Positions 1 through 32,614 of a stretch of DNA of 32,614 nucleotides are shown piece by piece. The DNA is taken from NCBI GenBank assembly GCA_028598975.1, contig JAQRMU010000008.1:1-32614 (forward strand), given 5' to 3'. The DNA is from Gammaproteobacteria bacterium (lineage in GTDB: Bacteria; Pseudomonadota; Gammaproteobacteria; Nitrosococcales; Methylophagaceae). Position numbers and translations under genes: made by a program. The notes under the pieces were generated by a model. It made no database searches. It was not told where the DNA came from and saw nothing but the letters and a program-made list of their open reading frames with translations. Position 1 is the stretch's first letter. Each line of letters begins with the position of its first letter.

Positions 1-270
1 ATTGTGGATATTGTTAATGGCAATGGAACACATAGTGGCTACTGGACTGTTAGTCAAAATGGTGAGACGGTCACCAACAAACTAACAGGAAAAATGACTA
101 CCGTGATGGCTGCCGATGGAAAAACACCATTGACGAGCATTAATGGGACTTTTGCTAATGTGTATGGAACGGGTGTTCATGCAACAATCCATCCTATTGG
201 TACCTATAAAGTAACATTCACGTCTCCGACAGAGTATGTCAGTGAGTGGGAAGTAACGGGCTTTGAATAA
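1..270 (+). CDS. C-terminal part of an unrecognised protein
   Basis: The reading frame is open from the first base and ends with TAA at 268-270, so the gene most likely begins left of the window; a GTG at position 4 is possible but has no visible upstream context. The visible ~89 residues are rich in Gly, Thr, Ser and Val with alternating hydrophobic residues, as in a beta-rich domain, and contain no Cys and no membrane segment. I do not recognise a family and assign no function. About 100 bases separate it from the molybdoenzyme operon, so co-transcription is possible but not shown. Confidence 0.5.
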   Translation: MVDIVNGNGTHSGYWTVSQNGETVTNKLTGKMTTVMAADGKTPLTSINGTFANVYGTGVHATIHPIGTYKVTFTSPTEYVSEWEVTGFE

Positions 271-329
271 CTGTTTAAATAGTAAAACTGGACTGACTGA
301 AGGGAAGATTTTATCTACTTGAGGCCAGC

Positions 330-367
330 CCACAACAACAGAAGAAATTCTGTTCACAATGTTGTGG
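330..367 (+). promoter_or_regulatory. Nested inverted repeat overlapping the ribosome-binding site of the small-subunit gene
   Basis: CCACAACA (330-337) is the exact reverse complement of TGTTGTGG (360-367). Inside it AACAG (337-341) pairs with CTGTT (350-354). The right arm runs into the GGAG (366-369) that serves the ATG at 377. The arrangement could be an operator or an RNA hairpin that partly hides the ribosome-binding site. The repeat is seen directly; its function is inference. Confidence 0.35.
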
Positions 368-376
368 AGAAAACTC

Positions 377-832
377 ATGTTAACTTTACTGGTAAATGGT
401 GAAAAAAGAGACATTGATGTTGATGATGACACACCATTATTGTGGGTGCTACGTGATAGCTTAGGTCTAACTGGTACTAAGTATGGCTGTGGTATAGCTT
501 TGTGTGGAGCATGTACGGTACATATTGATGGTATTGCAGCACGATCCTGTGTGACACCCGTATCAACAGTTATTGGTAAAACTATCACAACTATCGAGGG
601 CTTGTCTCAAGACAGTAGTCATCCACTACAACAAGCATGGTCAGAAGAGCAGGTGTCTCAATGTGGATATTGTCAGTCTGGTCAGATTATGTCAGCTGCT
701 GCATTGCTAGAAAAAATATCTAATCCAAGTGATGAAGACATCAATAATGCTATGAGTGGGAACATTTGTCGCTGTGCTACGTATCAACGGATTCGTGCTG
801 CGATTCATACTGCTGCGAAGATGGGAGGTTAA
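377..832 (+). CDS. iorA: Isoquinoline 1-oxidoreductase-type small subunit, [2Fe-2S] protein
   Basis: This is the electron-transfer subunit of a xanthine-oxidase-family molybdenum hydroxylase. It passes electrons from the molybdopterin subunit through two [2Fe-2S] clusters. The 151-residue length fits the family. The plant-ferredoxin-type cluster ligands are C38, C43, C46 and C58 ([11 protein letters not shown]), and the second cluster uses the CGYC pair C96/C99 and C131/C133. An ATG at 359 is in frame, but the ATG at 377 has GGAGA six bases upstream and gives the normal N-terminus, so I use 377. One base separates its stop from the large-subunit ATG. The gene is intact, unlike two of its operon partners. 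The true substrate (an aldehyde or N-heterocycle) cannot be told from sequence. Confidence 0.88.
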
Positions 833-833
833 T

Positions 834-3026
834 ATGAACACTAACCTCAAGATGACACGACGAGACTTTTTGAAAGTGGATGCAAGCTTGGGGCTTGGTC
901 TTATACTCGCATTTTATATGCCGACAGGATTATCCAAAGCGGTCAGATCTCTTTCCCCAGAAAGTCGCCCATTCAACTCTTCTTTTGAGCCGAATGCTTT
1001 TATTCGTATAGCAACTGACAATAGCATTACTGTCATCGTTAAGCATTTAGAAATGGGCCAAGGAGTCTCTACTGGTCTACCCACATTAATTGCTGAAGAA
1101 CTTGATGCTGATTGGAATCAGATTAATGTGGAAGCGGCACCCGCTAAAGCTAGGCTTTACCGGAACCTTATATGGGGATCTCTGCAAGGTACTGGGGCCA
1201 GTAACTCTATGGCCAACTCATTCAATCAAATGCGTCAAGCGGGAGCGACAGCACGAGCCATGCTCGTCAGTGCTGCGGCAGAGCGCTGGAATGTTCCTGC
1301 AAGTGAAATCACAGTCAGTAAAGGTGTGGTGCAACATCACGGTAATAAGTTCAAAGCCAGCTTTGGTGAATTGGTAGAAGCAGCATCACAATTGACGATT
1401 CCTGAGAATGTCACATTAAAAGAGTCGAAGGATTTTGAATAGATAGGCAAACATGTTGACCGTAAAGATACGATGGTCAAGTTAAATGGTACTGCCCAAT
1501 ATACGATAGATATGCAGTTAGCTGATATGTTGACGGCAGTAGTTGCTCATCCGCCACTGTTTGGTGCCAAGGTTAAGTCGTTCGATGACAGTAAGGCTAA
1601 AACAGTTAAAGGGGTTGTTGAAATTGTACAGGTCCCTAGTGGAATAGCAGTACTTGCCAATGGGTTTTGGTCTGCAAAACTGGGACGTGATGCACTAAAG
1701 ATCGAATGGGACACATCGGTTGCGAATACACTAGGATCAGATGAGATCCTTCAGAAATATAAAGAATTGGCAAAAATTCCTGGAGCGGTTGTGCGTAGTG
1801 AAGGTGATATAAACAAGGCTATGGCGGGAGCTACAAAACGACTCTTTGCTACTTTTGAATTCCCCTACCTTGCACATGCCGCGATGGAACCAATGGATTG
1901 CACCATAGCATTAAGCGAAGAAAGATGTGAATTGTGGCACGGGGAACAGATGCAAACCCTAACTCAGGTCAATATGTCTAGAATACTGGGTCTCAAATTG
2001 GATCAAATAAAGATCAATACACTCTATGCTGGTGGTAGCTTCGGTCGACGCGGGAATCCACAATCAGATTTCCAATCTGAAGCGGCGCACATTGTTAAGG
2101 CCATTTCAGGTCGAATCCCAATTAAGCTGATCTGGACACGTGAAGATGATATGCAGGCAGGTTTCTATCGACCACTTAATTACCATACGCTAGAGGCGGG
2201 TCTTGATGATGAGGGTAATATAATTGCTTGGCATCACCGTATTGTTGGACAGTCAATTCTTGCGGGGACGATGTTGAATAGCGTGTTGCTAGAAAAAGGT
2301 AATGATCCGATGGCAATGGATGGAGCAAAGGATTTTCCATACCGAACACCTAATCTACTTGTTGATCTACATACACCCAAGATCAATATACCGGTTCTAT
2401 GGTGGCGTTCGGTAGCACATACTCATACCGCTTTTATTGAGACTTTTATTGACGAACTTGCGATCGAAGCAAACGAAGATCCAGTTGAATTTCGTCGTTC
2501 ACACCTTGCTGGACAATCACGTTTTCTGAATGTACTTGAATTAGTAGTTGAAAAGTCTGGTTGGAAAAGATCTATGCCAAAAGGCAGAGGCCTAGGCTTG
2601 GCACTGCATAAATCATTTAATACTTACGTTGCCCAAGTTGCTGAAGTTACGGTGAGTAAAGAGGGTAAGCTCACGGTTGATCGTGTTACTTGTGCTGTGG
2701 ACTGCGGCATTGCCGTTAATCCCAAAATCATCGAATCACAGATGCAGGGAGGTATAGGTTTTGGATTGTCGGCAGCTTTAAAGGGTGAAATTACATTAAA
2801 AAATGGCAAGGTAGAGCAATCTAACTTCCACAATTACCAACCGATTCGAATGAATGAAATGCCACATATTGATGTGCATATTGTGGAGAGTCATGAAGCA
2901 CCATCAGGTGTCGGAGAACCTGGTGTGCCACCTATTGCTCCCGCAGTATGCAATGCGATTTTCATGGCTACTGGCAAGCGCATACGATCTCTGCCAATCA
3001 GTTTGCATGATTTAAGTTATACCTAG
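834..3026 (+). pseudogene. iorB: Isoquinoline 1-oxidoreductase-type molybdopterin large subunit, interrupted by an in-frame amber codon
   Basis: This would be the catalytic molybdopterin subunit of the hydroxylase. It begins with a twin-arginine signal (TRRDFLK, followed by a hydrophobic stretch), implying Tat export of the complex. Frame 834 encodes 202 residues and stops at TAG (1440-1442). The same frame then continues without further stop to 3026, with the family-typical IGKHVDRKDTMVKLNGTA immediately after the TAG. Counting the TAG as a residue the product is 730 long, as expected for an unbroken family member. Cofactor and active-site motifs survive: GGSFGRR, and GVGEPG with the presumed catalytic Glu near position 695. 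An ATG at 1473 has no ribosome-binding site and would make a fragment lacking the N-terminal domain. Only one codon is damaged, so this is a very recent nonsense mutation, a readthrough codon or a sequencing error. Confidence 0.85.
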
Positions 3027-3041
3027 TTAGGAAAAATAAAA

Positions 3042-3437
3042 ATGCAAAGTATAGATTTAGGAGCTGTTCAAGGCATTATCAGATGGCTGAAGGGTGGTCA
3101 TCAGCTAAGCTTAATTACGGTCGTTAATACTTGGGACCCATCACTACGACCTGTTGGATCAATCCATGGTATCAGGCAATATGGATTATTGCTCGATTCA
3201 GTATCGGGGGGATGCATTGAGGATGATGTAGTGAAGGCGTTTACTCCTAAACAGCACACAGAGATAGTCAGTTTGTCACATGATCCAAGATTGGGTGATA
3301 TGGCGTTATTGGAAGCATTAATATTTGATGCCTTTTATGAGAGTGCAATAGAATCGCATAGCAATAACCAAAAACGTCGTGAACGGATGGCAATGTTAAC
3401 TGGAAGGGCAGATGATATTAAGGATGAGGCGGCATGA
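3042..3437 (+). pseudogene. XdhC/CoxI-family molybdoenzyme maturation protein, internally and C-terminally deleted
   Basis: XdhC-like proteins insert sulfurated molybdenum cofactor into xanthine-oxidase-family enzymes and are usually about 250-350 residues with an N-terminal XdhC_CoxI domain and a C-terminal Rossmann domain. Here only 131 residues remain. The N-terminal motif is present (RPVGS, then VSGGCIEDDVV), but from about residue 70 the sequence jumps to the late part of the second domain (SHDPRLGDMALLEAL, NNQKRRERM). The GxG nucleotide-binding start of the Rossmann fold and the final GARTPPEIA-type segment are missing. Usually invariant positions are also changed: WDPS replaces WGSS, and ESAIESHS replaces VGALGSRR. 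The stop overlaps the next ATG (ATGA). It is probably non-functional. Confidence 0.7.
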
Positions 3438-4021
3438 TCTGTGGCATATTGCTTGCTGCTGGAACTGCCAGTCGTTTTGGTAGTAACAAACTACTGTACC
3501 CACTACCAGACGGTACGCCCATTGGAATTTCTGCAGCGCGTAATTTAAAAAAAAGTGTTGATCATGTCATTGCTGTTGTGAGGCCTGATGATAAAGTTCT
3601 TACCAATTTATTACATACTGAAGGCGTGAGCACGATAGTGGCTGAAAATTCAGGGCAGGGAATGAGCGGGAGCCTAGTGGTTGCTATTCGTACTACAAAA
3701 GATGCCGATGGTTGGCTTATTGCCCTTGCAGACATGCCTTGGATAAACCCTCAGACAATAAGTACGATTGCGATGATGATAGAAGAGGGTACAGATATAG
3801 CCGCACCTTATTATGGAGAACATCGTGGTCATCCGGTAGGGTTTTCACATCGATTTTTACCAGAATTACTTCGTCTTACAGACGATAAAGGGGCTGGTGA
3901 GTTACTACGAATAAACAGTTGTTTTATAAGAAGATTTCAATCTGATGATATTGGAATACTACAGGATGTTGATAGGCCAAGAGATGTATTGACTAAATCA
4001 GAATTAATTTCACCATGCTGA
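3434..4021 (+). CDS. MocA-like molybdenum cofactor cytidylyltransferase (NTP-transferase family)
   Basis: The 195-residue protein has the MobA/MocA nucleotidyltransferase fold. Visible motifs are the N-terminal nucleotide loop LAAGTASRFGSNKLL (residues 7-21), SLVVAI, the metal-binding ALADMPW segment, RGHPVGF, DKGAGELL and a final DVDRPRD. In this family MocA adds CMP to molybdopterin to make the MCD form of the cofactor used by xanthine-oxidase-family enzymes, which fits its place after the small and large subunits and the XdhC-like gene. Its start overlaps the XdhC-like stop by four bases. It appears complete. Cytidylyl rather than guanylyl specificity is inferred from the neighbours. Confidence 0.8.
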   Translation: MICGILLAAGTASRFGSNKLLYPLPDGTPIGISAARNLKKSVDHVIAVVRPDDKVLTNLLHTEGVSTIVAENSGQGMSGSLVVAIRTTKDADGWLIALADMPWINPQTISTIAMMIEEGTDIAAPYYGEHRGHPVGFSHRFLPELLRLTDDKGAGELLRINSCFIRRFQSDDIGILQDVDRPRDVLTKSELISPC

Positions 4022-4047
4022 TGTATATAGCTCATACTTTTGCGAAA

Positions 4048-5637
4048 CTAAGAATATCGGGAGCGAATTTGATCCCACATTTTATGTTGTTGTTTAATGG
4101 TTTTATCATTCCATATTGATACTTGTTGTATATTATCAATACTCCCTTTAAGTTCGCGAAGAAGTGTAAATTTCTTTTTAACTTGCTCTGTCATTCCTAA
4201 GGTTTCATAGCTCATCATTTGTAAATAATGGCAAGGAGTAAAATTAGGACTCATGATGCAACCTTCTTCATAAGCGGCGATCGCTTTTTGGTACTCTCCT
4301 AGGACAAAATAACTTTGGCCTAGCGCAAGCTCATATAATGGAGAAGGTGTGGGGGTAAAGCGCTTTGCTTTTTCTGCATTATAAAGGGCTTCTTCTCCTA
4401 CTCCTGAAGCAGATAGTGCCATAGAAAGGAATAGATGTGCTTCGGCATTATTAGGGTCTAAGGCTACAGCTTGACGGCACTGTGAGATCGATTCGTTACC
4501 TTGCTGCCGCCAAAGTTGTACCCAGCCTAATATTGACATGGTGTAGGGTGATTGGGGATCTAACTCTATTGATTGTTGGGCATGTGAAAGTGCTAAATCT
4601 AAATTTGAGTGCTTAGTATTCCAAGTCATTAGCCACTGATAGACAATGACTCGTGCTAGCCATGCATGCACAGCCGCATAGTTTGGATCTATTTGATTAG
4701 CCTTAGTTAAAAGGCGTAAGGCTTCATTAGTTTCTTTTGCGGTATAGCATCTAAATTGTGCAATACCCTGAAGCAAAGTATCGTGTGCCTCAACACTACT
4801 TGTGCCTTTATAACCAAAGAGTGCTGCTTCTTCACCTGCTAGTTTGATCTGTAGTACGCTAACAATGCTTTGAGTTAACTCATCTTGAAGGACAAAAATA
4901 TCTTTTAACTCGCGGTCGTAACTATCAGACCACACATGACCATCACTCCGTGTATCTATTAATTGTGCAGTGACACGTAAATGATTGCCGGCATGTTGCA
5001 CGCTACCTTCAAGTAAATAACGCACGCCTAATTCAGCTGCGATTTCTTTAGATGATTTTTTACTACTTTTATAAGAAAAAGATGACTGTTTAGATATAAT
5101 AAACAAGCCAGATAACCTTGATAACATGGAAATTAAGCTATCGGTAATACCATCAGCAAAATACTCTCGTGTACTATCTGTAGCAATGTTGGCAAAAGGC
5201 AATACGGCAAGAGACTGTTGATCTTCAATAAGTGTTGGAAAGTCACTTATTTTGCGAGCATGGCTTTGTACAGAGATTCTTTCCTGCCATTCAATTTGGA
5301 TGGCATAGCTTCCTTTTGGTAACGTGAATCGGACAGGGTCTGTGGCACCTTCATCATCGTAGTATTCACGTAACTTAGACCGTAAACGTCCAGCCTCCAC
5401 GCGAACTATTGAATCTATAGCAGGATCAAATGATGGCTCTCTATCAAATACTTCAATACCAATACTATAACCTTTGAGTTTCTTGGCCCGGCCCTCAAGG
5501 GTCTCTGCCATGATATAACTCAGAAAGCGTTGTTGGCGCTCAGCCTTGGCAAACATCGGACTAGAAAGGATCTTGGCAAAACATTCATTAATTTGGATGT
5601 CTTGAACTTTCGTCCACTTAGTATTAGATAAATCCAT
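4048..5637 (-). CDS. TPR-containing signalling/regulatory protein with FlgO/TolB-like domain
   Basis: A 529-residue cytoplasmic-looking protein with three parts. Residues ~16-115 form the domain seen at the start of many 'adenylate cyclase-like' TPR regulators, with the signature FDPAIDSIVRVEAGRLRSKL and a closing LPKGSY. Residues ~141-265 are the FlgO/TolB-N-like segment (SLAVLPFAN, EYFADGITDSLISMLSRL, YLLEGSV, DIFVLQDELTQSI). Residues ~285-500 are helical TPR repeats. I see no cyclase catalytic domain. It converges on the molybdoenzyme operon with only 26 bases between stops, so it may or may not regulate it. Start at 5637 is the first Met of the conserved domain. The domain assignment is firm; the biological role is unknown. 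Confidence 0.7.
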   Translation of the reverse strand: MDLSNTKWTKVQDIQINECFAKILSSPMFAKAERQQRFLSYIMAETLEGRAKKLKGYSIGIEVFDREPSFDPAIDSIVRVEAGRLRSKLREYYDDEGATDPVRFTLPKGSYAIQIEWQERISVQSHARKISDFPTLIEDQQSLAVLPFANIATDSTREYFADGITDSLISMLSRLSGLFIISKQSSFSYKSSKKSSKEIAAELGVRYLLEGSVQHAGNHLRVTAQLIDTRSDGHVWSDSYDRELKDIFVLQDELTQSIVSVLQIKLAGEEAALFGYKGTSSVEAHDTLLQGIAQFRCYTAKETNEALRLLTKANQIDPNYAAVHAWLARVIVYQWLMTWNTKHSNLDLALSHAQQSIELDPQSPYTMSILGWVQLWRQQGNESISQCRQAVALDPNNAEAHLFLSMALSASGVGEEALYNAEKAKRFTPTPSPLYELALGQSYFVLGEYQKAIAAYEEGCIMSPNFTPCHYLQMMSYETLGMTEQVKKKFTLLRELKGSIDNIQQVSIWNDKTIKQQHKMWDQIRSRYS

Positions 5638-8198: not shown

Positions 8199-8639
8199 TT
8201 AATTATGTAATAAAGTAAGTGGATAGCGCTGGCCTGAAAGATAATCATTCAAACAGTCCAAAACTAAAGGACTGCGAAAATCAGCTTGTCTTGCCATTAA
8301 TTGTTGCTTATTTAACCATAAAGCTTGATGAATATCGTCATCTAGTTTTTGATTGGGATCGTGATTACTCGCCATTCCTGTAAAACAATACCGTATATAG
8401 GTGTCTTTACTTTCAGGATGTTGCCAGCGATAAATACCAATCAATGCAGTGGGTTCAAATTGCCATGCGGTTTCTTCGTGGGTTTCACGAATAACAGCAT
8501 CAATCAGACTTTCGCCTGACTCGAGATGGCCTGCGGGTTGATTGAGCGTCATCTTGCCGTCGATTTCTTCTTCGACTATTAGGAAGTTGCTTTCCTGTTC
8601 GATGATTGCGGCGACGGTGGTTCTGGGAGTCCAAATCAT
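8199..8639 (-). CDS. nudJ: NUDIX hydrolase, NudJ-like
   Basis: A 146-residue NUDIX enzyme with the full box [20 protein letters not shown] (residues 37-56), which holds the metal-binding Glu residues. NudJ of E. coli (YmfB) hydrolyses nucleoside tri- and diphosphates and the thiamine precursor HMP-PP; the same place between rluE and mnmA supports the assignment. The start at 8639 gives the canonical N-terminus ([10 protein letters not shown], then LNQPAGHLE), so the first 140 bases really do lie inside the rluE reading frame. Translation may be coupled to rluE. Confidence 0.9.
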
Positions 8640-9210
8640 CCGATGATTTTATCATGGCCGGGCTAAGTACAGGAGCAGGAACTTCTATCCACTGTCCTGA
8701 ATCGATATTATCCACCGTCCAATCACCAATGGCATAACGGATTAAACGTAAGGTTGGATGTCCAATTGCGGCAGTCATGCGGCGAACTTGGCGATTTTTA
8801 CCTTCGGTTATTTTGAGTTCAACCCATTGTGTTGGAATTGATTTTCGTTCACGTATTGGCGGGATACGATCCCAAATAGCAGGTGGTTCAATTAATGTTG
8901 CTTTTGCAGGCCGAGTCATACCATCTTTAAGTTCAACCCCTTGCCGTAACTGCTCTAATGCGGCATTATCGGGAATGTTTTCCACTTGAGCCCAATAGGT
9001 TTTTTCAAGCTTGTGGCGAGGATCACTAATAAAATGTTGAAGTGGACCTGAATCCGTAAGCAATACCAAACCTTCACTGTCGCGATCTAAGCGTCCTGCA
9101 GGGTAGACACCTTTAACATCAACAAAGTCTTTTAGTGTTTGTCGACCTGCCTCATCAGTAAACTGAGTAAGCACATCAAAGGGTTTATTAAGTAATATTA
9201 GACGTGGCAT
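8500..9210 (-). CDS. rluE: 23S rRNA pseudouridine synthase RluE with an Arg-rich C-terminal extension
   Basis: RluE of E. coli converts U2457 of 23S rRNA to pseudouridine. The 236-residue product has the RsuA/RluB/E-type catalytic motif [13 protein letters not shown] with Asp42, the family N-terminus ([14 protein letters not shown]) and [20 protein letters not shown]. The ordinary enzyme core ends near residue 188. The frame then runs on for about 46 residues inside nudJ, giving a tail with about 14 Arg. The tail is visible in the sequence. Whether it is functional (RNA binding) or the result of a lost stop codon is open. First gene of the rluE-nudJ-mnmA-hflD operon. Confidence 0.92.
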
Positions 9211-10982: not shown

Positions 10983-13361
10983 TTATTCACATATATCTAA
11001 GGCATGTTCCATATCAGCAAAGGCTAGCTGGAGTTGAGTTACTCCTTCTCTTGCGGCATCAATATTATTAGCTTGATATTGGCTTTGTAGAGTAGCAGCG
11101 ATTGAGTGAACATCGTTGTGAGTTTGTTCAAGTTTTTTCAATCCGACATGATCAAAAAAATGTTCCTGTTTAGCTCGTATAATCCATGTCCCACAAGGGC
11201 ACTTCTTGTGATTCATAATTGGCCAAAGTTCACTGGATTGAGGTTCATTATGGATGATTTCAGTAAACTTGTTTTTCCACTGCTGAGAAGCCAGTAGGAA
11301 TGTTTTTGCTTTAGTTTCTTTAAGACTTAGGTTTGTATTGCCGGTTAATAACCACTCTTGATTAGGAATATACTGACTTAACCACTTAGGAAATTCAGTA
11401 GCAGGCATAGGTTTAGCAATGCCATAGCCTTGTGCATGATCGCATCCCATAAGTATTAACATTAATCCATGCTCTGTTGTTTCCACTCCCTCAGCAATTA
11501 CCTCACGGTTAAATGAATCAGCCAAGCCAATCACACCATCAATAATAGCTGAGTCACTAGGATCATCTAACATATCCCGAATAAAGCTTTGGTCTATTTT
11601 AATGGTATTAGCAGGTAGATTTCTTAAATGCGTTAGCGATGAGTAACCTGTGCCAAAGTCATCTAGAGCAATATTAACGCCTAATGTTTTTTGACAGGTT
11701 GTGATAATGCTACTGATAGCATTGAGGTCACTTAAAACACTACTTTCTAATATTTCTAACTGCAGACATTTTGAATTTACAGATGAGTGTTTGCTTAATG
11801 CTTGTTCAAGCAAGCTCAAGAATGAATCAGATAATATATGATGAGAAGATATATTAACGCTAACTTCCAATTTGATATCTTGTTTTCGCCACACTTCAAG
11901 TTGATGGAGTGCTTCATTTATTACCCAGTCACCTAACTTTATCTCTAGTTCAGTACCTTCGATTGAAGGTAAAAAATCTAATGGTGGAATGAGACTATTT
12001 TCAGGATGAATCCATCTAATTAATGCCTCAGCCCCATATACCTCACCGCTGACCATGTTAACTTTTGGTTGATAATACAGCTGGAATTCATTGTTAGTTA
12101 AGGCATGTTCAATTTCAACTAATTGATGGTGCTTTTGAATAGTGCGCTGATCATGTTCTGGGTTAAATAGGTGATAGTTGTTTTTCCCTGCCAGTTTAGC
12201 TTGATACATTGCTTGGTCGGCGTGGCGTAGCAAGGTATCTATATCGCTATTATCCTGTGGGAATATACTGATACCGCTAGAGGCCGTAATTTTATGGGAA
12301 TAATTATCAATTAAAAAAGGCTGTGCAAGTGAGTGGTGTATGCGCTCTAGAGTTTGCCGGCATTGATCGTAAGATTCAATCTCATTTAACAGTAAAGTGA
12401 ACTCATCTCCTCCTTGACGAGAAACGGTATCTTCTTCTCGTATATTAGCAGTAATACGTTGTGCTACTTCCAGTAATAAAGCATCTCCCACATCATGATT
12501 GACCATAATTATCATTAACTGGTTTGAAATTATCTAAATCAAGGAAACAAACAGCCAATTGAGTTTTAGTGCGCTTACTGTGAGAAACGGCTTGATGGAA
12601 ACGATCTGCAAATAATGCTCTATTTGGCAAGCCTGTAAGAACATCATAATGTGCCATTGATTCCAGCGTTTTCTGATGCATTTCATTTTGAGATATGAGA
12701 AAGGCTTGTTCATTATTACTAGCTTTTAAATCTGTCACTAAATCTGCATTTTTGAATCCCAGTCTTAAACCTGAAACTAGACTGTGGTTGAATCTTTTCA
12801 CAACTAAAACCATGAACACAAAATGAATAATTAGAAAAACAGTTGCCATTTCAATATCCAGTTCATCTAACACAAACATTAATGGTAGTAGTGCAGGTGT
12901 TATAAAGCTGTAATAAGCGGGCAAACTACTAGAGTTTGAACTTATAGCGCCAGCTGAAATGCCAATTAATACGAAAGGAATAATAAATTGGGCACCCAAA
13001 GACCAACTTGGATCAATTGAAAAACTTAATATACCGAATGTAAGGCCACTCAAAAAACCACCAATACTATATTTTATTTCATAGTCACTTACTTGCTTTC
13101 GAGTTAAAAGCATGTTGGATTTAGTTAGCTGGTTTTTTATTTTTATGATTAATAGAATCCGAAAAATAGTAATAATGATTACGGTTACACTCCAAGTGGC
13201 TAGTAGTGCCGTATCAAGTGCATTAATTAGTACTGTTGAGGCCAGTAAAAAAAACTTACAAAAAGGCTGGTTATTAATGCCGATAGTCCTTGCTTAGCTA
13301 AAAGGTGAATACGCTCACTATCTACTTGTAAATTTACTTTTTCTTCAGTTGGTTCGCTCAT
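10983..13361 (-). pseudogene. Membrane GGDEF-EAL protein with C-terminal CZB-like domain, broken by two frameshifts
   Basis: Read through three frames this was a cyclic-di-GMP enzyme. From the ATG at 13361 (MSEPTEEKV) come about five or six membrane segments, then a GGDEF domain (YDVLTGLPNRALFADRF, later RQGGDEF), and an EAL domain keeping AEALIRW, DDFGTGYSSL, KIDQSF and VIAEGVET. It ends with a chemoreceptor-zinc-binding (CZB) like region (CPCGTW, then HNDVH). Frame break 1 is a T8 tract (minus strand; A8 at 13247-13254), where nine or six T would restore the frame. Break 2 is four extra bases at 12498-12501, between NDNYG and HDVGD. Longest intact pieces are 12493-13113 (membrane part and start of GGDEF) and 10983-12515 (rest of GGDEF, EAL, CZB). 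An EAL fragment with all visible catalytic residues could still be made if translated. Confidence 0.85.
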
Positions 13362-31124: not shown

Positions 31125-31451
31125 TTATTCAACTTTTAAAAACTTGTTTAATATGTTGAGTAGGTGGGAAAGATCAAGAGGCTTGGTAATATAGTCATCA
31201 AATAATCCTTTCGCTGACTCAATATCATCTTTCATTGCCGATGCTGTTACAGCAACAATGGGGCTGCTCTTATAACTGTCCGTGTTTCTTAATCGGCGAG
31301 TTAGCTCATTGCCATCCATTTCTGGTAAATGAATATCCATTAATATTAAATCAAAATTGTGTTCTAGGGCGCTTTTCCAGCCTAACTCTCCCGTTTCTAC
31401 CATATGTAAGATATGTGGCTGTCTATCAAAAACAGATTGCAGGTAAGTTCT
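31125..31451 (-). pseudogene. Truncated response-regulator receiver domain, probably from a hybrid sensor kinase
   Basis: The frame encodes the last ~100 residues of a CheY-like domain: VETGELGWKSALEHNFDLIL, the phospho-Asp in LMDIHLPEMDG, VTASA, and the conserved Lys in DYITKPLD. The domain's first strand with the acidic pair is missing. Homology-like sequence extends upstream of the first ATG (31403), through LQSVFDRQPHILH, to a TGA at 31452-31454, immediately before the REPIN. The gene therefore lost its 5' part, which may have held a kinase or GGDEF-type module. A protein from the ATG at 31403 would not fold as a normal receiver. Confidence 0.7.
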
Positions 31452-31455
31452 TCAT

Positions 31456-31478
31456 GAAATAAAGGGGAAATAAAGGGG
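31456..31478. repeat. Short tandem duplication abutting the REPIN
   Basis: AAATAAAGGGG occurs twice in a row (31457-31467 and 31468-31478), the second copy leading straight into the repeat arm GGGGACGCTACCC. It looks like local slippage or the trace of a repeat insertion. Confidence 0.5.
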
Positions 31479-31538
31479 ACGCTACCCTTTGTTGTAGAAA
31501 AAGTAAATCTATTAATAAAAAAGGGTAGCGTCCCCTAT
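31472..31538. repeat. REPIN-like inverted pair of REP sequences
   Basis: GGGGACGCTACCCTTT (31475-31490) is followed after 29 bases by its exact reverse complement AAAGGGTAGCGTCCCC (31520-31535). Two inverted REP-like units around a short AT-rich spacer form a REPIN, an element mobilised by RAYT (IS200-like, TnpA_REP) transposases. No RAYT gene is in the window. The element sits at the broken 5' end of the receiver-domain fragment. A single related arm recurs at 32421-32441. Confidence 0.7.
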
Positions 31539-31566
31539 TTCAAGTTTGAACCGGCAACAAAAAATA

Positions 31567-31788
31567 TTAACCCTTTGGTGGGTATGGATCATTTCCGTAT
31601 GAATCTCTATCACGGATTTTTCCATCTCTACCATGAATCAATACTTCACTTTGTTGATTTCTGGCGATATCAACCGCTGCCTGACGTGCTTCTTCCTGAG
31701 TACGATGGTGAGAAGTATCTCTGGAATTACCTTCTCCACGAACACCCCAACCATCTTCTCGTTTTACTACATGCTGATTTTTACCCAT
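31567..31788 (-). CDS. DUF2188 domain protein
   Basis: A 73-residue protein of the DUF2188 family, recognised along its length: NQHVVKREDGWGVRGEGNSR, then SHHRTQEEARQAA, then SEVLIHGRDGKIRDRDSYGN and the terminal PYPPKG. These small proteins are widespread, often in mobile or accessory regions. Their function is unknown. It starts at the ATG at 31788 and lies between the REPIN and the structured-RNA stretch. No partner gene is evident. Confidence 0.88.
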   Translation of the reverse strand: MGKNQHVVKREDGWGVRGEGNSRDTSHHRTQEEARQAAVDIARNQQSEVLIHGRDGKIRDRDSYGNDPYPPKG

Positions 31789-31960
31789 TTAAAGTACTCT
31801 GTCACTTAAGAGCAAAATTGCTCAGGAGTCATATGGGGGCAAACAGCTGAGATTCAAGTAAGCATTTGTATTAAATACTTATTTGTTAGAATAGGCACAG
31901 CAGCGTAGCTTTTATTTCATTAACTTACCTTAACTAATTCTAAGGTTAAGGTGAGGTGAG
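31789..31960. other. Non-coding stretch upstream of the DUF2188 gene
   Basis: No credible ORF. ACCTTAAC (31927-31934) and GTTAAGGT (31945-31952) form a perfect 8-base stem with a 10-base loop. The promoter of the DUF2188 gene should lie here; no convincing boxes are seen. Confidence 0.4.
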
Positions 31961-32260
31961 GCGAGAGCTAAGGCATACATTCCGCTTCATATAATGTTAT
32001 CCATCAGTCGCTGACCTTTGGGCATTACGTCCACTTCTTCCGATCGACTCCACTCTCATCACAGTCAAACCTTAAGGAATCAGCTCAAGGTAGAGTGGAA
32101 ATTACATTACGCCGTCATCGAATCCACGATGAGGAGGTAGTATTGCAGTTCCGGCTCTTTCCGCTAGCCTCGTTTCATATCCCCTACCAATCGGAACCTA
32201 GCTCTGATTCAGCTAGACGTATATTGGGGACATTCAAAAATTTGGCTAACAAAGTAACCT
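31960..32260 (-). ncRNA. Hairpin-rich, RNA-like sequence; possible group II intron fragment
   Basis: About 300 bases without a protein-like frame but with several nested stems: 32049-32056 with 32092-32099 (TCCACTCT/AGAGTGGA) enclosing ACCTT/AAGGT (32069-32073, 32087-32091); CATCG/CGATG (32116-32131); GGCT/AGCC (32153-32169); CTAGCT/AGCTAG (32198-32216). Base composition is richer in GC than the flanks. Read on the minus strand, patches such as GAGCCGGAACTGC and GTGGACGTAATGCC look to me like group II intron domain I, and an HNH tail typical of intron-encoded proteins lies next to it on the same strand. I see neither a GTGYG 5' end nor a domain V, so at best it is a partial relic. Confidence 0.35.
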
Positions 32261-32310
32261 CCATCCTAAACGACCCAAAAGGGACAAGAAGAGTTAATTA
32301 AAACAAACTA

Positions 32311-32418
32311 TTAACCATCATGCAACCCATTGTGCAGTTGCATATGACAGTTGGGATGTAACAACACCAAGTTTTCCAACTTATCGCTACCGCCTTTGTG
32401 CTTTTCAATAACGTGGAA
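32311..32418 (-). pseudogene. C-terminal fragment of an HNH endonuclease, possibly from a group II intron-encoded protein
   Basis: A 35-residue reading frame ending in TAA at 32311-32313 encodes HVIEKHKGGSDKLENLVLLH then PNCHMQLH. This is the second half of an HNH nuclease motif with its conserved His, Asn and Cys-x-His. HNH domains of this type end many group II intron reverse transcriptases. The frame runs upstream only through the REP arm to a stop, with no start codon, so the rest of the gene is gone and the repeat marks the break. It was missed as an ORF because it lacks a start. Confidence 0.6.
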
Positions 32419-32593
32419 AAGGGGGGGCGCTACCCTTTTTTAAAGATTGTTGATATTGGGTTTTGTAGGTGTCAAATTGTTTGAGTTGGGCAGCGTCTAG
32501 CCCGAGTTCGATTTGCTTCTCGGGGCTGATATGGATGTATTCATTCATAGTGTTAAGTTCGTTATTAAAACTGCTGTATTGTTTACTTTCCAT
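32405..32593 (-). CDS. Short hypothetical ORF whose 3' end runs into a REP arm
   Basis: A 62-codon ORF with a good ribosome-binding site (GGAG seven bases before the ATG at 32593). The first ~50 residues look like a real, mostly helical, Gln- and Glu-rich protein (MNEYIHISPEKQIELGLDAA). The last ~12 (KKGSAPPFPRY) are translated from the REP arm at 32421-32441, so the original C-terminus was probably lost. I do not recognise a family. It could be a truncated gene start left by rearrangement. Confidence 0.4.
   Translation of the reverse strand: MESKQYSSFNNELNTMNEYIHISPEKQIELGLDAAQLKQFDTYKTQYQQSLKKGSAPPFPRY
32421..32441. repeat. Solitary REP-like arm
   Basis: The sequence here matches the left arm of the REPIN at 31475-31490 with one substitution (GGGGGCGCTACCC for GGGGACGCTACCC) and the same T-rich continuation. 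No inverted partner is close by. It joins the HNH fragment to the short ORF. Confidence 0.55.
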
Positions 32594-32614
32594 AGCTTAC
32601 TCCGTTATTAAAAT

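Follow-up and report, generated by a model that had tools for sequence, protein, structure and literature searches.

The window, which denotes the whole 32,614-nucleotide stretch of DNA analysed here, corresponds to contig 78 of 94 in a draft genome of 1.88 Mb (99.64% complete). At its start lies an operon encoding the small and large subunits of a molybdenum-binding enzyme, XdhC and a MocA-like protein (Table 1). We searched 28 other same-genus genomes, several of them incomplete, and found a close operon in three and a distant relative of it in two more. The three close operons belong to one Methylophaga sp. and two Methylophagaceae assemblies (L027, L028, and L029), and were 90, 89, and 85% identical to the window over the downstream part of the large subunit. 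The small ORF, 170 aa long in L027 and L029, precedes the operon in all three relatives, and the TPR gene lies 3' of it in the window and in all three. The order of the small ORF, both subunits, xdhC, mocA, and the divergent TPR gene (window 1-5637) was the same in the four genomes; the genes beyond this block differed between L028 and L029, as if the block were a travelling cassette. Promoter-like sites showed no excess over shuffled sequences (6 versus 9.8, sd 3.7), and nothing was built on the pattern of terminator-like sites (3 versus 2.3 in shuffles, sd 1.3).

Table 1. Features at the molybdoenzyme locus, in window coordinates.
Feature	Position	Strand	Basis
Small conserved ORF, 3' end, cut by contig end	1-270	+	
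Small subunit, two [2Fe-2S] domains (Fer2, Fer2_2), open, 157 aa	359-832	+	
Large subunit, molybdenum-binding, xanthine oxidase family, interrupted at codon 203	834-3026	+	translation, Pfam, branch dN/dS
In-frame TAG; TAT (tyrosine) in three same-genus relatives	1440-1442	+	translation, alignment
Frame from first ATG past TAG, 517 aa, possible reinitiation start at residue 214	1473-3026	+	
xdhC remnant, 131 aa; partial CoxI match, 52 of 68 positions	3042-3437	+	
Junction of 459-base loss in xdhC, at GATGAT	3222-3227	+	
MocA-like molybdenum cofactor cytidylyltransferase, under family curated cut-off, open	3434-4021	+	
TPR-repeat regulator-like gene, best NCBIfam matches far under cut-off	4048-5637	-	

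The first-pass annotation had described the large subunit as being of a length normal for its family and broken by a lone TAG, with the same frame on either side and homology running across it. Translation confirmed this description: the gene spans 730 residues, and codon 203 was the sole internal stop. Pfam matched MoCoBD domains both upstream of the stop (first segment of MoCoBD_2, residues 44-199, 58.5 bits) and downstream of it (MoCoBD_1, 103.3 bits, and the remainder of MoCoBD_2, 62 bits), against a cut-off of 27 bits each. The three relatives aligned without a gap near the codon, and the proteins of two of them are 726 and 730 aa long from the equivalent Met. Both MoCoBD domains, which were also present in the two intact relatives scanned, identify a large subunit of the xanthine oxidase family; the TAG deprives the window copy of a single uninterrupted cofactor-binding chain. 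A weak hammerhead match, below the cut-off, began at residue 215 in L027 and 219 in L028, shortly past the position of the stop. The N-terminus resembles a signal with what we take to be a twin-arginine motif. No NCBIfam equivalog (PaoC, 4-hydroxybenzoyl-CoA reductase, xanthine dehydrogenases, and others) scored over its cut-off, the best being 155.7 versus 994.55 bits for the downstream part, and these scores were lowered because the gene was scanned as two parts.

Among solved structures, chain C of the aldehyde dehydrogenase 8gy3 was closest in sequence to the intact L027 protein, of which residues 6-721 of 726 aligned to it. As in the 8gy3-type large subunit, an N-terminal MoCoBD_2 segment stands ahead of the hammerhead and MoCoBD_1 regions in L027, whereas the window copy is stopped at codon 203. 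The known aldehyde dehydrogenase includes a cytochrome subunit; no cytochrome match was found among the seven neighbouring proteins scanned in the window. In the isoquinoline 1-oxidoreductase IorAB, a small Fe-S subunit is followed by a large subunit with an N-terminal twin-arginine signal, and there is no adjacent FAD subunit. The window operon shares this architecture, but differs from IorAB in its stop codon and its gutted xdhC, and no family named for isoquinoline 1-oxidoreductase was among the profile matches to the window proteins. Judged from its sequence, the enzyme would be a small-plus-large-subunit member of the xanthine oxidase family, of the aldehyde dehydrogenase or isoquinoline 1-oxidoreductase type.

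Examination of the same codon in close relatives, a check that the first-pass annotation had proposed, revealed TAT (Tyr) in L027, L028, and L029, whose large-subunit frames run without interruption for 752, 756, and 756 codons, respectively. We also surveyed homologues in named genomes, taking the best 80 of 264 matches, these three included. The codon was covered in 78 of the 80 (all except L036 and L105), with a sense codon in 77, a gap in one, and a stop in none. The 77 residues were 36 Leu, 18 Ile, 16 Tyr, 4 Val, 2 Phe, and 1 Arg, indicating a position that is mostly hydrophobic or aromatic. Three alignment rows held a stop elsewhere in the subject, and none held one at this site. The large subunit carries a disabling lesion that is absent in its relatives, as expected of a pseudogene.

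Selection on each gene was assessed with a home-made four-taxon codon model, from which gapped columns and the stop column were removed. On the window branch, the large subunit had a dN/dS of 0.082 (95% 0.062-0.109; p 0.76 versus background), with values of 0.087 before the stop and 0.074 after it. The first-pass annotation had called the small subunit and the MocA-like gene intact, and both were indeed open and constrained, with dN/dS of 0.086 (95% 0.047-0.145; p 0.59 versus background) and 0.148 (95% 0.082-0.295; p 0.53), respectively. The TPR gene was if anything tighter (0.134 versus a background of 0.205, p 0.06). For xdhC, dN/dS was 0.90 (95% 0.45-2.1) against a background of 0.087 (p 2.5e-8). 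Doubtfully aligned columns account for part of the amino-acid excess in xdhC; with these columns out (96 of 131 codons), the estimate was 1.38 (95% 0.52 to the grid limit of 5; p 7.6e-7). Private changes were also counted. The ratio of amino-acid to silent changes in xdhC was 29:4 in the window versus 13:21 in the three relatives pooled (Fisher p 3.5e-5), and in the large subunit it was 17:39, the stop being one of the 17, versus 57:142 (p 0.87). By simple arithmetic mixing neutral and constrained evolution, the neutral phase would have taken up at least about 40% of the branch for xdhC (from the lower bound of 0.45), and no more than about 2-5% for the large subunit (from the upper bound of 0.109). 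The relaxed selection expected of a pseudogene was thus seen in xdhC (0.90) and not in the large subunit (0.082), so the stop is young and the large subunit at most a very young pseudogene.

The xdhC gene lies between the large subunit and mocA, and its gutted state was absent from the first-pass annotation. It encodes 131 aa, versus 334, 339, and 336 aa in L027, L028, and L029. The 459 bases lost are a multiple of three, and in L028 a copy of GATGAT marks each end of this stretch; the C-terminal part is either missing or too diverged to align. No Rossmann domain was matched in the window xdhC at E 0.001; this domain occupies residues 165-306 in the two relatives scanned. The PF02625 score was 37 bits, whereas the other five genomes searched gave 68-73 bits. 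The frame is still open, and its stop lies across the start of mocA, an overlap that the relatives share. A spare XdhC elsewhere in the genome was considered and rejected, as the remnant was the only PF02625 match at E 0.001. In Rhodobacter capsulatus, xanthine dehydrogenase depends on XdhC to obtain its cofactor: the review PMC2997495 describes the XDH of an xdhC mutant of this species as inactive and without cofactor, and PaoABC as inactive if expressed without PaoD. We also rejected the idea that this enzyme type always has XdhC beside it: an XdhC-like frame was found in the flank of 22 of the best 80 of 264 loci, a count in which flank lengths vary and a divergent XdhC may escape.

The best tree differed from gene to gene. 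The window copies of the large subunit and the TPR gene grouped with L027, those of mocA and the small subunit with L029, and that of xdhC with L028. The part of the large subunit before the stop, taken alone, also grouped with L028. L027 was the nearest relative along much of the large-subunit gene. In mocA (3500-3799), identity to L029 was 0.84, versus 0.72 and 0.75 for the other two, and in xdhC (3050-3349) L028 was slightly nearer (0.82 versus 0.80 and 0.73). The mocA-like gene (window 3350-3950) being nearest L029 while the large subunit is nearest L027 suggests within-operon exchange between species. The operon looks mosaic from these sequence comparisons, and the branches of different genes may consequently span unequal time.

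Further possible lesions were observed in the window and elsewhere in the genome. On contig 37 (12997-13314; L022 / L150), a remnant of another xanthine-oxidase-family large subunit was found as a 106-residue C-terminal match within a 127-residue frame; it is 42% identical to the window large subunit and adjoins a frame that by eye resembles an IS3-type transposase. In the window, a GGDEF-EAL gene (10983-13113, - strand) is split into frames of 206 and 510 aa. The shift resembles a 4-base tandem duplication near 12493-12515, and the break falls at position 52 of the GGDEF profile. When 11 other same-genus genomes were compared, the top match had an uninterrupted frame of 1322 codons; it is 69% identical and may be a paralogue. 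The split may be a second recent lesion, or it may reflect faulty assembly. At 8199-9210 (- strand), a pseudouridine-synthase-like frame, recognized by eye, overruns by about 140 bases into a Nudix-like gene in another frame, perhaps through a lost stop or a late shift. The stretch at 31125-32614 (- strand) holds few long frames and a 92-aa fragment that by eye is response-regulator-receiver-like, and lies close to the end of the contig; it may be made up of repeats or of genes in decay. The contig 37 remnant and the broken GGDEF-EAL gene look like wider signs of loss.

The first-pass annotation had left three options for the TAG: a fresh nonsense mutation, suppression or read-through, and a sequencing error. 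The fresh mutation was best supported, by a stop that is private and a gene without relaxed selection, whereas suppression was disfavoured. The search for an amber-suppressor tRNA that it had proposed was run, and none of the 31 detected tRNA genes had the anticodon CUA; the genes came from a tRNA family search, and ARAGORN supplied the anticodons, for 30 of them in their loci and for the last in a separate stretch. Because expected tRNAs, for example an isoleucine tRNA, are missing from the list, the search or the draft is not exhaustive. Under amber suppression or reassignment, TAG would be unused as a terminator and RF1 lost. Here, RF1 was present (554.1 bits versus a cut-off of 423.25 bits), and the 30 counted window frames ended in 19 TAA, 6 TGA, and 5 TAG, the large subunit's own terminator being one of the TAGs. 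With no CUA anticodon among the 31 tRNA genes detected and RF1 present, a suppressor tRNA or a loss of RF1 was rejected. Programmed read-through would leave the stop conserved in orthologues, but it was found in none of the three same-genus relatives and none of the 78 covered loci among the best 80 of 264. That TAG is nonetheless decoded at a useful frequency, by a near-cognate tRNA or an undetected suppressor, to make the full-length enzyme gains some credit from the constraint past the stop, which equals that of the upstream part. In PMC7918605, many in-frame bacterial stops are argued to be read through, since dN/dS around them is below 1, and long deletions are taken as a sign of degradation, by which deletions in the gene itself are meant. 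For a TAG that is private and young, however, a low dN/dS is expected anyway, so this argument cannot separate read-through from a recent nonsense mutation here; the stop is common to none of the three relatives, and the branch-wide constraint therefore mostly predates it. The first-pass annotation had also argued that the intact neighbours make suppression worth excluding. The neighbours are open as it said, but the argument is weakened because the xdhC between them is gutted, which itself speaks for decay. We consider functional decoding of the TAG very unlikely.

An error of sequencing or assembly, or a minority-strain allele in the draft, could also have placed the TAG in a gene that is really open. 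The TAG is one base from the codon of the relatives, the gene is otherwise constrained, and gene-wide dN/dS would be the same for an error and for a very young mutation. The apparent 4-base frameshift in the GGDEF-EAL gene might hint at imperfect assembly, while the absence of internal stops from the 29 other counted frames tells nothing on the error rate because these frames were chosen as open. The adjoining xdhC, however, has many substitutions and a 459-base loss, which are beyond a single-base error and make real loss plausible; we give the error only a minor share of the probability. It is still harder to credit, and indeed scarcely probable, that the stop has turned the gene into a pair of functional chains, one of 202 residues that is exported and a second, reinitiated at ATG 1473, that assembles with the first. 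The stop does sit past the first MoCoBD_2 segment and ahead of the relatives' weak hammerhead match, which a restart at residue 214 would keep. Moreover, the molybdopterin part of nicotinate dehydrogenase (3hrd) consists of two named chains, and residue 2 of 3hrd_A aligns to L027 residue 194, near the stop position; the 3hrd chains match other parts of the protein, though, so that split lies elsewhere. About ten residues past the stop, similar across many homologues, would be lost, the downstream piece would be without a signal of its own, and the codon at 1473 is Met in L028 and L029 but another residue in L027. The gutted xdhC weighs against two working chains as well.

Taken together, these findings suggest that the TAG is probably a recent nonsense mutation of a Tyr codon in a decaying operon of a Methylophaga-like bacterium. 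Translation would stop after 202 residues, ahead of most of the cofactor-binding part, and an active enzyme would therefore not be expected. The sequence shows that the operon was already damaged: over half of xdhC is gone, and the gene has drifted without constraint. The long-relaxed xdhC and the still-constrained large subunit are most simply explained if xdhC went first and the TAG came much later. The operon would then be undergoing stepwise loss, the helper gene before the structural gene, an order that depends on gene trees in mutual disagreement. The private stop, the open orthologues, and the unrelaxed remainder of the gene resemble recent single-nonsense pseudogenes of bacteria, from which the window differs in that the adjoining helper gene decayed much earlier. 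Against decay, the constraint on the large subunit, the small subunit, and mocA is equally predicted by a working enzyme, whether read through or split. Loss of the molybdenum cofactor pathway was rejected as the cause of decay, as 26 of the 29 genomes of the genus, the window's own included, encode MoaC, and MoeA was found in all four genomes searched. This retention of general cofactor synthesis also counts against decay of the operon, though the proteins kept may serve other molybdoenzymes.

If the genes of the operon share one history, the enzyme could have kept working long without a normal XdhC, with the 131-aa remnant, or nothing, maturing a xanthine-oxidase-family enzyme. We regard this as doubtful. 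One possible reason for the tolerance of the xdhC losses is that its frame stays open to the stop overlapping the mocA start. An already-dead xdhC could also have been brought in late by exchange between relatives, which would remove the puzzle of an enzyme without XdhC.

These results indicate that a lone in-frame stop is best judged together with its neighbours: the large-subunit gene alone could pass as read through, whereas its operon shows decay. The suggested order of loss, from helper to enzyme, also raises the question of whether XdhC is always needed.
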